Assembly: GCA_905478035.1 (NCBI GenBank) | Contig: CAJQGX010000034.1 | Location: forward strand, 1-41,548 | Origin: an uncultured SAR86 cluster bacterium | GTDB taxonomy: Bacteria > Pseudomonadota > Gammaproteobacteria > Magnimaribacterales > D2472 | Reading direction: 5' to 3' | Length of the DNA: 41,548 bases | Notes under the pieces: generated by a model | The model's input: the letters and a program-made list of their open reading frames with translations, nothing else | The model's database searches: none | Told to the model about the DNA's origin: nothing | Shown: positions 7,793-10,766 of the stretch, piece after piece | How the letters are laid out: each line of letters begins with the position of its first letter | How positions within the stretch are numbered: position 1 is the first letter of the stretch | Translations under genes and position numbers: made by a program

Positions 7793-8209
7793 CTATAGGT
7801 CTCCTTCTTTCCTAACTTCGCTTCTATCAATCTCAAACTTTTCTCCATATCTAGCTTCTAGTTTTTTTTGATTTTCTGATATGACCTCGAATGGATCTAG
7901 GCCTAGAGAGGCACAGGCTGTTGTCCAGTACCACATAATATCTCCTAGCTCTCTTTTCATGTGAAAAATATTATCTTCTGAAGCTGGCTTGCCTTGAAGC
8001 ACCATTTTCTTAACTATTTCTACGAACTCACCAGTCTCACTTCCAAGTCCTAAGGCAGCAGTAAGAAGTCTAGGCACTTCAATTTTGGAATTGTTATTAA
8101 TATCATCCAAACTCTTCTTTAGTGCATCCATATCAAGACTAGGATCGCTTGTAACTTTTTTTACAAAGTCACTATAGGTTGAAAAAAAATCTTTTACTTC
8201 ACTGCTCAT
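7793..8209 (-). CDS. MazG-type nucleoside triphosphate pyrophosphohydrolase
   Basis: The 138-aa protein is an all-alpha NTP pyrophosphatase with one MazG-like domain. The magnesium-binding helices carry E58-x-x-E61 (LGLGSETGEFVE) and E87-x-x-D90 (KRELGDIMWYW), the defining ExxE...ExxD pattern. Single-domain MazG proteins of this kind hydrolyse (d)NTPs, often non-canonical ones, or affect ppGpp; they are common in marine phages and bacteria. It is not the two-domain MazG of Escherichia coli (about 263 aa). The start lies 3 bp after the stop of the glycosyltransferase gene, so the two are one transcription unit. Confidence 0.85.
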   Translation of the reverse strand: MSSEVKDFFSTYSDFVKKVTSDPSLDMDALKKSLDDINNNSKIEVPRLLTAALGLGSETGEFVEIVKKMVLQGKPASEDNIFHMKRELGDIMWYWTTACASLGLDPFEVISENQKKLEARYGEKFEIDRSEVRKEGDL

Positions 8210-8212
8210 CGC

Positions 8213-9253
8213 TTATTCTCCAAATTTAAATATTTTATTCATTATATCTTTTAATGTTGATTTTGATTTAAAAGGTTCCTGATCCCAACTAAAAGTATCA
8301 AGGAATTCAGAAGTAGTAGCCTTTTTCATATCAATTATTTTTTCATTTTCAAGATCGATACCTGATATGTATTTAAAATCATCCAAGGTTCTTTTTTTGC
8401 CCATGCCAAAAGTGCCCCTGAGACTTTTATCAACAATTGAAACTAGCCTATCTATACTTTCTTTCTCTCTATCAATCCATTTAATTTTTCTTTCTCTTTC
8501 CTCATCCTCATCCCAATGGAGTTTTCTTTTTAGGTCACCAACAACATGATAAAGATGATAAACAGGTACATTGGCGGTATGAAATACGCTAAATCCCCTT
8601 GTAAATGCGCGAAGCAATATTGCCAACTCTTCACCATAGAAATATAACTTATCGTCATATGGAATTTCATTTACAAATTCTTTAGTAGTAAAAAGACAAC
8701 CGGCTGCTATTAGATAGCCATGCGAAATTTCATTTTCTGTTATGCCAGCAATTTGATTTGAGAAACACCTCTTTATAAAAATACTGTCTTCTTTAAGAAC
8801 TAGAGTCAGAGCTCTCTTTTCTTGTGAGTCTAATTTAAAAATTTCATTTTCTGCATCTATAACCTCAAAAGCTCTTGGGTAGCAGGTAATAATTGGTTTT
8901 TGATGATAAGCAGTTCCAACGTTTTTAATTTTTTCAATGTAATTTTTAAAATAAGAATCCCATCCCTGCTCAAATTGCATATGAGAGTCTATTTGAAAAT
9001 AGTAATCTTCGTTAGTAAAGAATTGCTGTACTCTTTTTCTTGCCCAACATGGTCCTTCAGAAATTTTAGGATCAACGTGTTCAAATCGTATTTGCGAGCT
9101 AAAAGAAAATTCTTCTAGGTCCAAAGGAAAATTGGATTGGTCACAAATACCAAATACTAAATTTTCAGGTTTATCAGCATTGTTAAAGGCGCTATTCACA
9201 GTTGCCTTTAGCAAGGGGTCTTGATAAGAAGCTATGGATATAAAAATTTTCAC
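8213..9253 (-). CDS. GT60-like GlcNAc-transferase (hydroxyproline-type family)
   Basis: The 346-aa product matches the GlcNAc-transferase family PF11397/GT60, which includes the Dictyostelium Skp1 hydroxyproline GlcNAc-transferase. Seen motifs are IASYQDP near the N-terminus (7-13), GPCWARKRVQ (67-76), QIDSHMQF with the DxH metal motif D89-S-H91, GWD (97-99), and YFYGEEL (204-210) with the family's acidic pair E208-E209. The enzyme would use UDP-GlcNAc or a related sugar nucleotide. No signal peptide or membrane span is visible, so it is cytosolic. Translation starts with GTG at 9253. It shares a 48-bp divergent gap with a prolyl 4-hydroxylase gene, which strongly suggests that hydroxyproline is the acceptor. 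The acceptor protein is unknown. Confidence 0.85.
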   Translation of the reverse strand: MKIFISIASYQDPLLKATVNSAFNNADKPENLVFGICDQSNFPLDLEEFSFSSQIRFEHVDPKISEGPCWARKRVQQFFTNEDYYFQIDSHMQFEQGWDSYFKNYIEKIKNVGTAYHQKPIITCYPRAFEVIDAENEIFKLDSQEKRALTLVLKEDSIFIKRCFSNQIAGITENEISHGYLIAAGCLFTTKEFVNEIPYDDKLYFYGEELAILLRAFTRGFSVFHTANVPVYHLYHVVGDLKRKLHWDEDEERERKIKWIDREKESIDRLVSIVDKSLRGTFGMGKKRTLDDFKYISGIDLENEKIIDMKKATTSEFLDTFSWDQEPFKSKSTLKDIMNKIFKFGE

Positions 9254-9266
9254 AATTTACTTTTAG

Positions 9267-9310
9267 TTAGAAATCTAGTTAACAAATAGTATAATTTCTT
9301 TATGTTAACA
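9267..9310 (+). promoter_or_regulatory. candidate promoter of the prolyl 4-hydroxylase gene
   Basis: TATAAT occupies 9290-9295, six bases before the ATG at 9302, with a weak TTAGAA -35 at 9267-9272 (17-bp spacer). Transcription would begin at or next to the A of the start codon. GTTAACA occurs twice, at 9278-9284 and 9304-9310, flanking the -10; such a direct repeat could be an operator, but this is only a visual match in AT-rich DNA. The divergent glycosyltransferase GTG start lies at 9253. Confidence 0.45.
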
Positions 9311-9922
9311 GAGCCAAAAAAAATAGCTTCAAACGTAACCTTATATTCAACTGATCCAATAATTTATGTTGTCTCTAATTTCTTGTCTAATGAGGAGTGC
9401 CAAAGTTTTATTGATTTAGGTATGGGCAATATGAAAAGAGCAACTGTAGCAGGTGATACGGATGAGGTTGTTGAAAATAGAACCAATGATTTTTTTTGGC
9501 TAGAACATAATGCAAGTGAAGTGGTTCATGAGGTAAGTAAAAGGTTTTCAGTTTTGGTTAAAATGCCTATTAACAATGCAGAACAATTTCAACTTGTTTA
9601 TTATGGACCTGAAAAAGAATACAAACCTCACTTTGATTCTTTTGATAAAGATACCGATGCTGGTAAGAAAAATATGGAAGTTGGCGGACAAAGAATGACT
9701 ACAGCACTTGCATATTTAAATGATGTTGAAGCTGGCGGAGCAACTGATTTCCCTGAAATTGGAGTATCTATAAAACCTAATAAAGGCGATGTTGTTATAT
9801 TTAACAATTGCATACAAGGCACTACAGACATACATCCTAAATCATTGCATGGAGGATCTCCTGTAATAGCTGGTGAAAAATGGGCTGTAAACTTATGGTT
9901 TAGAGAAAACGCAATTTACTGA
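9302..9922 (+). CDS. prolyl 4-hydroxylase-type Fe(II)/2-oxoglutarate dioxygenase
   Basis: The 206-aa protein has the double-stranded beta-helix of the prolyl 4-hydroxylase alpha-subunit family. Iron ligands are His110 and Asp112 (KPHFDSF) and the distal His183 (SLHGGSPV), with Lys193 (GEKWAVNLW) placed to bind 2-oxoglutarate. The ten-residue His-Lys distance equals that of the human collagen enzyme (His483/Lys493). Further family marks are NRTNDFFWL (59-67), FQLVYYGPEKEYKPH and ATDFPEIGVSIKPNKGDVVIF. There is no signal peptide, so a cytosolic protein target is expected. Bacterial relatives include the Pseudomonas PPHD enzyme acting on EF-Tu. The divergent GT60-like gene suggests the hydroxyproline is then glycosylated. 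The start lacks a Shine-Dalgarno sequence. Confidence 0.9.
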   Translation: MLTEPKKIASNVTLYSTDPIIYVVSNFLSNEECQSFIDLGMGNMKRATVAGDTDEVVENRTNDFFWLEHNASEVVHEVSKRFSVLVKMPINNAEQFQLVYYGPEKEYKPHFDSFDKDTDAGKKNMEVGGQRMTTALAYLNDVEAGGATDFPEIGVSIKPNKGDVVIFNNCIQGTTDIHPKSLHGGSPVIAGEKWAVNLWFRENAIY

Positions 9923-9923
9923 T

Positions 9924-10766
9924 TTACTTAACTTTCAAAGATCTTTGGCTATCAACAATATTGTATAAATGTTCCTGTGCTTCTGGCTTTAGCTGAGCAA
10001 CTCCCATAGTAATTACATCAATAATTGCTGAATAGGCTATTCTTGAGGTAAGTGGTTTATTGATCCTAAAATTATCTCCAACATTAATTTCAATTGGGTA
10101 GTCACAAATATTGGCTAAAGGAGAGTCACCTGGCATTATTCCAATGACTTTAACTCCAGACTTTCTAACAATTTTTACACTGTCAATTAATGCAGATGTT
10201 GTTCCAGATTGAGATATTGCTACAACGACATCATTCTTTGAAAGTGAGTTTGCTGACATCAGCTGAATATGAGGATCAGATATAAAAGATGATGATATTT
10301 TTAATCTAAAAAACTTATGTTGAGCATCCATAGCTACTGGAGCTGAGCCTCCAAATGCATACACCTCGATTCTGCCAGCATTTGCTAGAGCCTCGATGGC
10401 TGACTCAAGTGTATGCTGATCTATTTGTGATCGAACATTTAAAATCTCACTGATCGCAGTATCAAAAACTTTTTCACACAATTCATTTATGCTGTCATCT
10501 TCATCAATTTCATACATTACAAAGTAATCATCAGCCGCTAGCTGCTGAGAGAGGTTAATTTTAAACTCTTGATATCCTGAGAAACCTAAAGCTTTACAGA
10601 ATCTAATTAAGGTTGGCTCACTTATTCCCATGGCGCTTGATGCCTCAGCAGTTTTCATAGAAATAACTGACTTAGGATCGTTGAGAACAAAATTGGCAAC
10701 CAGCTTTTCTGATTTACGCAATTCAGGTATGGTATTTTTAATTTGTCGCAATAATTTTGTTGGCAT
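9924..10766 (-). CDS. hexR: RpiR-family transcriptional regulator, HexR-like
   Basis: The 280-aa protein has an N-terminal RpiR helix-turn-helix (about residues 1-75, with ASSAMGISEPTLIRFCKALG) and a C-terminal SIS sugar-phosphate isomerase domain (about 110-260) containing GGSAPVAMDAQHKFFRL and AISQSGTTSALIDSV. This arrangement and the wording of the HTH match HexR of gammaproteobacteria, which senses 2-keto-3-deoxy-6-phosphogluconate and controls central carbon genes. No zwf, edd or eda gene is adjacent, so the assignment to HexR over another RpiR member is tentative. A TATTCT hexamer (10773-10778, minus strand) ends 6 nt before the start codon, with no Shine-Dalgarno. Confidence 0.75.
   Translation of the reverse strand: MPTKLLRQIKNTIPELRKSEKLVANFVLNDPKSVISMKTAEASSAMGISEPTLIRFCKALGFSGYQEFKINLSQQLAADDYFVMYEIDEDDSINELCEKVFDTAISEILNVRSQIDQHTLESAIEALANAGRIEVYAFGGSAPVAMDAQHKFFRLKISSSFISDPHIQLMSANSLSKNDVVVAISQSGTTSALIDSVKIVRKSGVKVIGIMPGDSPLANICDYPIEINVGDNFRINKPLTSRIAYSAIIDVITMGVAQLKPEAQEHLYNIVDSQRSLKVK

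Follow-up and report, generated by a model that had tools for sequence, protein, structure and literature searches.

A divergently encoded prolyl 4-hydroxylase and GT60 glycosyltransferase in SAR86 bacteria, and a Pro/Thr-repeat protein as their candidate acceptor

In protists, family GT60 comprises polypeptide alpha-GlcNAc transferases with a GT27-related fold and Ser/Thr-rich mucin domains as targets (PMC8724618, PMC7185993), and GT60 enzymes have DxH in place of DxD, as is common to GT27 (PMC7185993). The GT60 enzyme of the protist Skp1 system acts on hydroxyproline and depends on the prolyl hydroxylase PhyA (PMC6939170). The Pseudomonas hydroxylase PPHD acts on EF-Tu (PMC7864055), plant hydroxyproline glycans start with Gal or L-Ara (PMC8724618), and GfcA, which is 30% Thr, has been suggested to undergo O-antigen modification and to be directed to GfcD for export (PMC8592465). 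Here we describe a 41,548-bp SAR86 contig (contig 34 of its genome; the window, meaning the whole stretch analysed) in which a GT60 glycosyltransferase (GT) and a prolyl 4-hydroxylase (P4H) are encoded side by side. The two genes are a conserved unit, gained and lost together, and their presence tracks both the class of YjbH at an unlinked exopolysaccharide-export locus and a small Pro/Thr-repeat protein encoded there, which is the candidate acceptor.

The GT gene (positions 8213-9253, minus strand, GTG start, 346 aa) and the P4H gene (9302-9922, plus strand, ATG start, 206 aa, a 2-oxoglutarate (2OG)-Fe(II) oxygenase) diverge across 48 bp (9254-9301), exactly as a preliminary description of the window had laid them out. 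Their genome (G000) comprises 1.26 Mb in 57 contigs and is 88% complete. The GT matches PF11397 at E 5.2e-42 (145 bits against a gathering cut-off of 21) and bears DxH instead of DxD (D89-S-H91); its nearest named records, at 86-87% identity, come from two SAR86 bacteria and from Gamma proteobacterium SCGC AAA076-P13. Both D89-S90-H91 and E208-E209 are kept in 55 of 55 SAR86 or SAR86-like rows (54 loci and the window). The structure model (pLDDT 94.3) predicts a polypeptide-GalNAc-transferase fold: among 50 PDB rows listed, from a VIA-align re-inspection of Foldseek's top 1000 chains only, the best 29 entries are all polypeptide GalNAc-transferases, and none of the 50 is named as GT60. A sequence search found no relative of solved structure. 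The donor would be an N-acetylhexosamine (HexNAc), and by family precedent GlcNAc. PF11397, DxH and the GalNAc-transferase-related fold are shared with the protist mucin-type GT60 enzymes of T. cruzi and Dictyostelium, from which the SAR86 enzyme differs in being bacterial, in having no signal anchor and in being paired with a P4H.

The P4H matches PF13640 at E 1.1e-15, and its HxD...H iron triad and 2OG lysine (H110, D112, H183, K193) are intact in the window and kept in 42 of 46 P4H rows examined; the motif residues that the preliminary description had picked out in both enzymes are present and conserved in SAR86 relatives. Its best solved relatives are the P4Hs of Bacillus (3itq, 4.5e-31) and Chlamydomonas (2jig, 5.8e-28). 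In the PDB, a profile of 19 SAR86-order P4Hs matched enzymes from Bacillus and Chlamydomonas as well as collagen, viral and human transmembrane P4Hs (3itq at 9e-43, 3gze at 2.7e-38, 7zsc at 1.2e-35, human transmembrane 6tp5 at 3e-17); the list up to E 10 comprised 13 sequences, none of them a PPHD, PHD2 or PhyA chain. Judged by sequence, the enzyme belongs to the procollagen/plant/Bacillus type and not to the PHD/PPHD/PhyA type. The Skp1 system of Dictyostelium, Toxoplasma and Pythium, with PhyA and Gnt1, offers the same two partners, but its PhyA is PHD2-related; Pseudomonas PPHD resembles the SAR86 enzyme as a bacterial prolyl hydroxylase of protein, but is PHD-type and is absent from the SAR86 profile's matches up to E 10. 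Hypermodification of DNA or RNA bases by an oxygenase and a GT was considered and set aside, the P4H being a clear relative of protein P4Hs and the GT model matching polypeptide transferases.

Among the 106 relatives in family f1 (handles G001-G106, unlisted handles being assigned to f1 by handle order), 46 have the GT, 46 the P4H, 44 both and 58 neither, so that 48 carry either gene. Adjacency, part of a check proposed in the preliminary description, holds throughout: the genes are adjacent in 44 of 44 relatives with both, with 40-69 bp between match ends. When 369 genomes were drawn from the class, PF11397 turned up in only four, one of them that of the window, and the three outside the order gave no P4H match; given this rarity, the invariable side-by-side arrangement in f1 is not a matter of chance. 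Three single genes lie at contig ends (GT in G071 and G072, P4H in G017), and in G018, which keeps the P4H, the GT slot holds an unrelated 272-aa protein. Beyond the UvrD/HexR background, the distances of the two enzymes are correlated (partial r 0.55 over 35 loci; Mantel 0/999), with the partial r falling to 0.38 over 32 loci when damaged P4Hs are left out. Family f4 has a P4H in all 14 genomes with GT60 and in six more without it. There the P4H occupies the corresponding NMO-uvrD site and, in G112 and G109, where it was read, begins by eye with a hydrophobic segment; GT60 belongs to a separate AlgH-GT60-GGT-MscS cluster, seen at six loci and with its domains taken from one of them. In f2, both genes of G125 are on a 3.5-kb contig that we take as misbinned f1 DNA.

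The candidate acceptor emerged from a PEPT-repeat query, which matched 27 of 101 SAR86 genomes (13 f4, 1 f2, 13 f1). Six f1 loci fetched from these matches are one protein family, here called the PAPT protein: its start resembles a signal peptide by eye and is followed by a GAIAAAVAAAAAIAA-like segment, by Pro/Thr repeats and, in most, by a Thr-rich tail. A repeat-free query of 72 N-terminal residues found the family in 20 of 111 genomes, every one of which has a P4H gene (damaged in G030, G056 and G044). A repeat-free alignment of 17 rows, each taken from a genome in which a P4H gene is present, matched 45 of 199 genomes at a threshold of E 0.01 (9 f2, 36 f1); G102 (E 0.008) was dropped as a chance match, leaving 35 f1 genomes. 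A pair gene is present in 31 of these 35 (Fisher 1.9e-10). The remaining four (G082, G088, G090, G096; 58-72% complete) lack a whole mazG, the neighbour of the pair, which is absent in three and cut at a contig end in G088, so the pair site is not assembled there.

In the loci read, the PAPT gene adjoins YjbH (PF06082, 2.7e-142) or sits one gene, YjbF/GfcB (PF11102), away from it, and four of these loci have an SLBB/Poly_export gene further along. The f1 YjbH proteins were divided post hoc, from E-value and match pattern, into class I (35 genomes, no match weaker than 9.6e-93, frames broken in G003) and class II (35 genomes with E between 1e-19 and 1e-75, the match usually being split in two but whole in G029, G101 and G059); that of pair-bearing G068 (2.3e-50) was left unclassified. 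A pair gene occurs in 32 of the 35 class I genomes, the other three being unassembled at the pair site, and in 0 of 35 class II genomes (Fisher 1.5e-16). The split recurs within genera (g1, 5/5 versus 0/7; g5, 5/5 versus 0/18), and the PAPT family is present in all but one of the 35 class I genomes. The class II slot is filled by a different protein in the 11 loci read whole of 14 fetched (G029 and G101 included), with extracellular repeat domains by eye, a Gly-Thr-rich tail and 0-1 APT. Weak Pro-Thr (PT) matches in pair-less G001, G028 and G029 are antisense by coordinates, within these Gly-Thr tails, and are therefore taken as frame artefacts. The cassette and YjbH/PAPT loci are ~240-246 kb apart in the single-contig genomes G018 and G023. 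On a UvrD tree (31 rows) the pair changes five times and the YjbH class four times, and four of four independent contrasts agree; on a PheT tree (39 rows) three of three contrasts agree on supported branches and five on all branches, each marker lying near one of the two loci (UvrD close to the pair site, PheT beside YjbH). The PheT tree mixes genera and is a poor species tree, which makes the YjbH-side region look exchanged. Divergence is strong across the SAR86 pheT-SLBB-yjbH region (L366-L369, L400-L451).

The PAPT protein may be compared with YjbE/GfcA of E. coli (yjbEFGH, gfcABCDE), likewise a small protein with a signal-peptide-like start, a small-residue segment and a Thr-rich tail, encoded beside YjbF/YjbH. 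Pro repeats are missing from YjbE of E. coli K-12, whereas the SAR86 protein has Pro/Thr repeats, and PAPT proteins gave no match to a YjbE/GfcA family model up to E 1 (three members against Pfam, five against NCBIfam). The PAPT protein is a positional analogue only.

Repeat sequence at the PAPT position tracks the state of both enzymes. The comparison covers 57 proteins from genomes of known GT60 state, five of unknown state being excluded. At least two APT motifs are found in 30 of 31 genomes with GT60 (the exception is G056) versus 1 of 26 without it (f4 G145), or in 27 of 28 versus 0 of 24 once the five rows that came from the repeat query (G112, G128, G139, G142, G145) are removed. Proteins from genomes without GT60 show (TP)n in G018, (TP)n, (PA)n or hardly any PT in f2 and no PT in f3; those of class II f1 are also in this group. 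PAPT makes up at least half of the PT sites in 22 of 24 f1 genomes that have GT60 and no known damage to the P4H (a count that includes G071 and G072, whose P4H lies beyond the contig end) versus 0 of 4 with a damaged P4H. The two exceptions among the 24 are G002 and G011, with (TAPT)n. Those with a damaged P4H have AAPT units (G044, G076) or short PPTT-like repeats (G030, G056). In f4, (PAPT) or (PEPT) linkers are found near the start of many secreted proteins (L294-L313, mostly f4 genomes), of which several carry a lipobox and some resemble subtilases by eye.

On balance, we lean towards a cassette that modifies Pro/Thr repeats of secreted proteins and whose main acceptor in f1 is the PAPT protein, giving a mucin-like surface glycoprotein. 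For catalysis, donor, acceptor residue, compartment and function of the pair we infer the following. Pro/Thr-repeat segments would be modified before or during export, and in f1 the main acceptor would be the small secreted protein, mostly (PAPT)n, at the unlinked YjbH/YjbF/SLBB exopolysaccharide-export locus. The P4H would hydroxylate repeat prolines, and GT60 would add HexNAc to the repeats, more likely on Thr (mucin-type) than on hydroxyproline. The result would be a mucin-like glycoprotein, stiff and located in the capsule or the exopolysaccharide layer. Action of P4H and GT60 on one protein is the biochemistry we judge likeliest, and to this extent the protein-modification pathway of the preliminary description stands, supported by the conservation of the unit; its cytosolic target, EF-Tu, and its strict Skp1-like order find no such support. 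Plant and algal P4H with extensin and arabinogalactan-protein O-glycosylation offers a further likeness in its Pro-rich repeats, the same broad P4H subfamily and an extracellular glycoprotein product, but there the first sugars on hydroxyproline, Gal and L-Ara, differ from the HexNAc proposed here.

The same PAPT acceptor could be modified in strict sequence, the P4H making hydroxyproline and GT60 placing GlcNAc on it as in protist Skp1, an order that we consider unlikely. Four genomes (G030, G056, G044, G076) have lost P4H iron ligands and retain intact GT catalytic residues, a pattern that tells against the hydroxylate-then-GlcNAc order of the preliminary description, even though GT-P4H adjacency, correlated evolution and one GT60-P4H fusion (L150, below) speak for it, as does the protist GT60 that acts on Skp1 hydroxyproline and depends on PhyA (PMC6939170). 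The damage is H110R in G044 and G076, and in G030 and G056 D112 is the sole survivor of the checked residues. Elsewhere in f1, a GT without its P4H partner occurs only at contig ends. In the G030/G056 pair omega (the ratio of non-synonymous to synonymous rates) is 0.32 for the P4H and 0.07 for the GT, the reverse of four comparison pairs in which the P4H is the more constrained (0.025-0.10, GT 0.14-0.15); a fifth gave 0.09 for the GT and no P4H ratio, dS being saturated. Omega was 0.23 and 0.10 (P4H and GT) for G076/G044, and 0.26 and 0.32 for G030/G044 across lineages, with dS above 1 in both cases. That the G030/G056 GT is constrained though hydroxylation is lost favours Thr as the sugar site, in a damaged-P4H sample that is small (two or three lineages). 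A candidate acceptor that is secreted and repetitive, and a GT kept where the P4H is damaged, also set SAR86 apart from the Skp1 system. The P4H frames of G030 and G056, which have lost iron and 2OG ligands, are still open (L069:6567-7202, L291:379-1014) and adjoin intact GT60 genes.

GT60 outside SAR86 bears on the same question. A genome search with a SAR86 profile as query kept 80 loci of 378 GT relatives, 25 from bacteria outside SAR86 and 55 that are SAR86 or SAR86-like by identity, some of them titled otherwise. A P4H is near or fused to GT60 in 2 of the 25: L150, from a Burkholderiales metagenome-assembled genome (MAG), encodes a GT60-P4H fusion protein (GT 21-323, P4H 452-632), and L163, from a betaproteobacterial MAG, has a P4H ~0.65 kb away. 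The L150 fusion parallels a dual P4H/GlcNAc-transferase reportedly present in a plant pathogen. No P4H was found in the available flanks of the other 23, several of the 25 loci being short, suggesting that GT60 does not generally need a neighbouring P4H and adding to the case against strict sequence. In a screen for five PT within 40 residues, in open reading frames (ORFs) up to 10 kb either side of GT60, a dense PT-repeat ORF accompanied 11 of the 25 loci outside SAR86, 1 of 80 viral loci and 0 of 54 SAR86 GT loci. It is a neighbouring ORF in L163, L166, L170, L171 and L172, and some such neighbours look, from their termini, like autotransporters or filamentous haemagglutinins. Other GT60 fusions involve a SET/Rubisco-LSMT-like domain (L149:8525-10951, Noviherbaspirillum), a protein kinase (L170:1699-3708, Aliarcobacter MAG) and a methyltransferase (L150:3017-4597, Burkholderiales MAG).

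A single-sequence viral scan for the GT found no relatives; an alignment-based viral scan found 531, of which 80 were kept (L173-L252), and GT60 is common on viral contigs, with a P4H nearby in 9 of the 80. In a GT tree of 107 rows, with every third viral row taken, the GTs of SAR86 group in a single neighbourhood, within which one viral clade is nested. Origin of the pair as a phage island was rejected, phage records holding only three distant GT relatives (~26% identity).

The pair and class I YjbH could also be hitch-hiking modules of one surface-polysaccharide type, with the pair acting on some other protein or glycan and the PT repeats being incidental linkers, a reading that we regard as quite improbable. 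The apparent exchange of the YjbH region in the genus-mixing PheT tree, the few independent tree contrasts, and the PT linkers of numerous secreted f4 proteins, whether or not the genome encodes GT60, are all compatible with it, but it would leave aside the tracking of GT60 by APT and of P4H ligand loss by PAPT loss, the PT-repeat genes near GT60 outside SAR86 and the predicted polypeptide-transferase fold. Less credible still is the pathway of the preliminary description, a cytosolic modification or oxygen-sensing system whose target would be an abundant protein, for example EF-Tu. By eye, both enzymes lack an export signal, as that description had noted, and PPHD acts on EF-Tu (PMC7864055) and PhyA/Gnt1 on Skp1 (PMC6939170); yet a P4H of the Bacillus/plant/collagen type, with no PHD-type chain in its matches listed up to E 10, although human transmembrane 6tp5 is among them, speaks against a PPHD-like hydroxylase and against EF-Tu or another cytosolic target. 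Nor would a target present in every genome predict a two-locus link with an exopolysaccharide locus. In HMW1C-type and flagellin glycosylation the substrates are secreted though the enzymes have no export signal, so missing signals on the enzymes do not exclude a secreted substrate, and the start of the protein that tracks the pair resembles a signal peptide by eye.

Several observations weigh against modification of the PAPT protein as proposed. Neither it nor YjbH was found in the window's own genome, at 88% completeness and in 57 contigs, and 16 of 48 pair-bearing f1 genomes have no classified YjbH, including G050 (91% complete, 2 contigs). The window's genus mates G002 and G011 have (TAPT)n, not (PAPT)n, and f4 G145, G109 and G136 combine a P4H and PT repeats with no GT60. 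The YjbH classes were set after viewing the matches, the PAPT profile came from pair-bearing genomes only, and the tree contrasts are too few to reach p 0.05 in a sign test. Outside SAR86, the 11/25 figure is a raw count, unadjusted for the background frequency of PT repeats, and 9 of these 11 loci were also flagged by a first, looser screen, the other two (L149, L164) being possibly out of frame. That first screen also flagged probably antisense or out-of-frame ORFs (e.g., L151, L152, L167).

The cassette site is bordered on the left by a gene for a MazG-like pyrophosphohydrolase (7793-8209, minus strand), 3 bp downstream of the GT, and on the right by one for a HexR/RpiR-type regulator (9924-10766, minus strand), convergent on the P4H. 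A TAGAAA-16-TATAAT promoter-like match (10/12 positions) lies on the plus strand within 9254-9301. Such matches are no commoner than chance (11 in the scanned stretch versus a mean of 13.5 in shuffles), and promoter and terminator scans of the cassette region were uninformative. In pair-less f1 slots, mazG and hexR are 12-20 bp apart in 6 of 10 read (G006, G007, G014, G016, G021, G028); a 309-aa NMO-like gene lies between them in G024 and G031 and an SDR-like gene in G020, and in G022, which has no hexR, an NMO-like gene lies between mazG and uvrD. MazG was rejected as a third cassette member since 11 of the 12 pair-less relatives checked for it have kept it. The 272-aa slot protein of G018 has no Pfam match and a best PHROG labelled ferrochelatase (8.6e-38); from its HxD...H spacing we read it as probably another 2OG oxygenase. 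In some relatives, single genes of NMO-, SDR- and 2OG-oxygenase-like type occupy the mazG-hexR (or P4H-mazG) slot (L281:1537-2466, L282:4971-5900, L283:3783-4751, L083:6771-7589). In G050 (SAR86A), a 229-aa ORF between GT60 and mazG (L067:7762-8451) shows similarity both to MazG and to the C-terminal portion of GT60, which would fit a partial tandem duplication.

In literature covered only in part, which falls short of showing absence from print, we found no title on a bacterial P4H-GT60 system, no link of one to a Pro/Thr-repeat protein and no match at the level of the repeats. Hydroxyproline- and mucin-type protein glycosylation have been treated as eukaryotic specialities. Possible, though we would not call it probable, is a bacterial mucin/extensin-type system in which a mobile P4H-GT60 cassette would hydroxylate the prolines and glycosylate the threonines of a secreted Pro/Thr-repeat protein that leaves the cell together with exopolysaccharide via a YjbH/GfcD-type port, with GT60 action on Pro/Thr repeats an older bacterial function ancestral to the protist mucin and Skp1 enzymes. 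Such a system might explain where GT60 originated and what the Thr-rich YjbE/GfcA proteins encoded in capsule operons, so far unexplained, could do; two compact bacterial genes and their predicted acceptor would also be simple and testable. Little is known of the cell surface of SAR86, a lineage abundant in the surface ocean, and these bacteria may make their own mucin-like coat protein.

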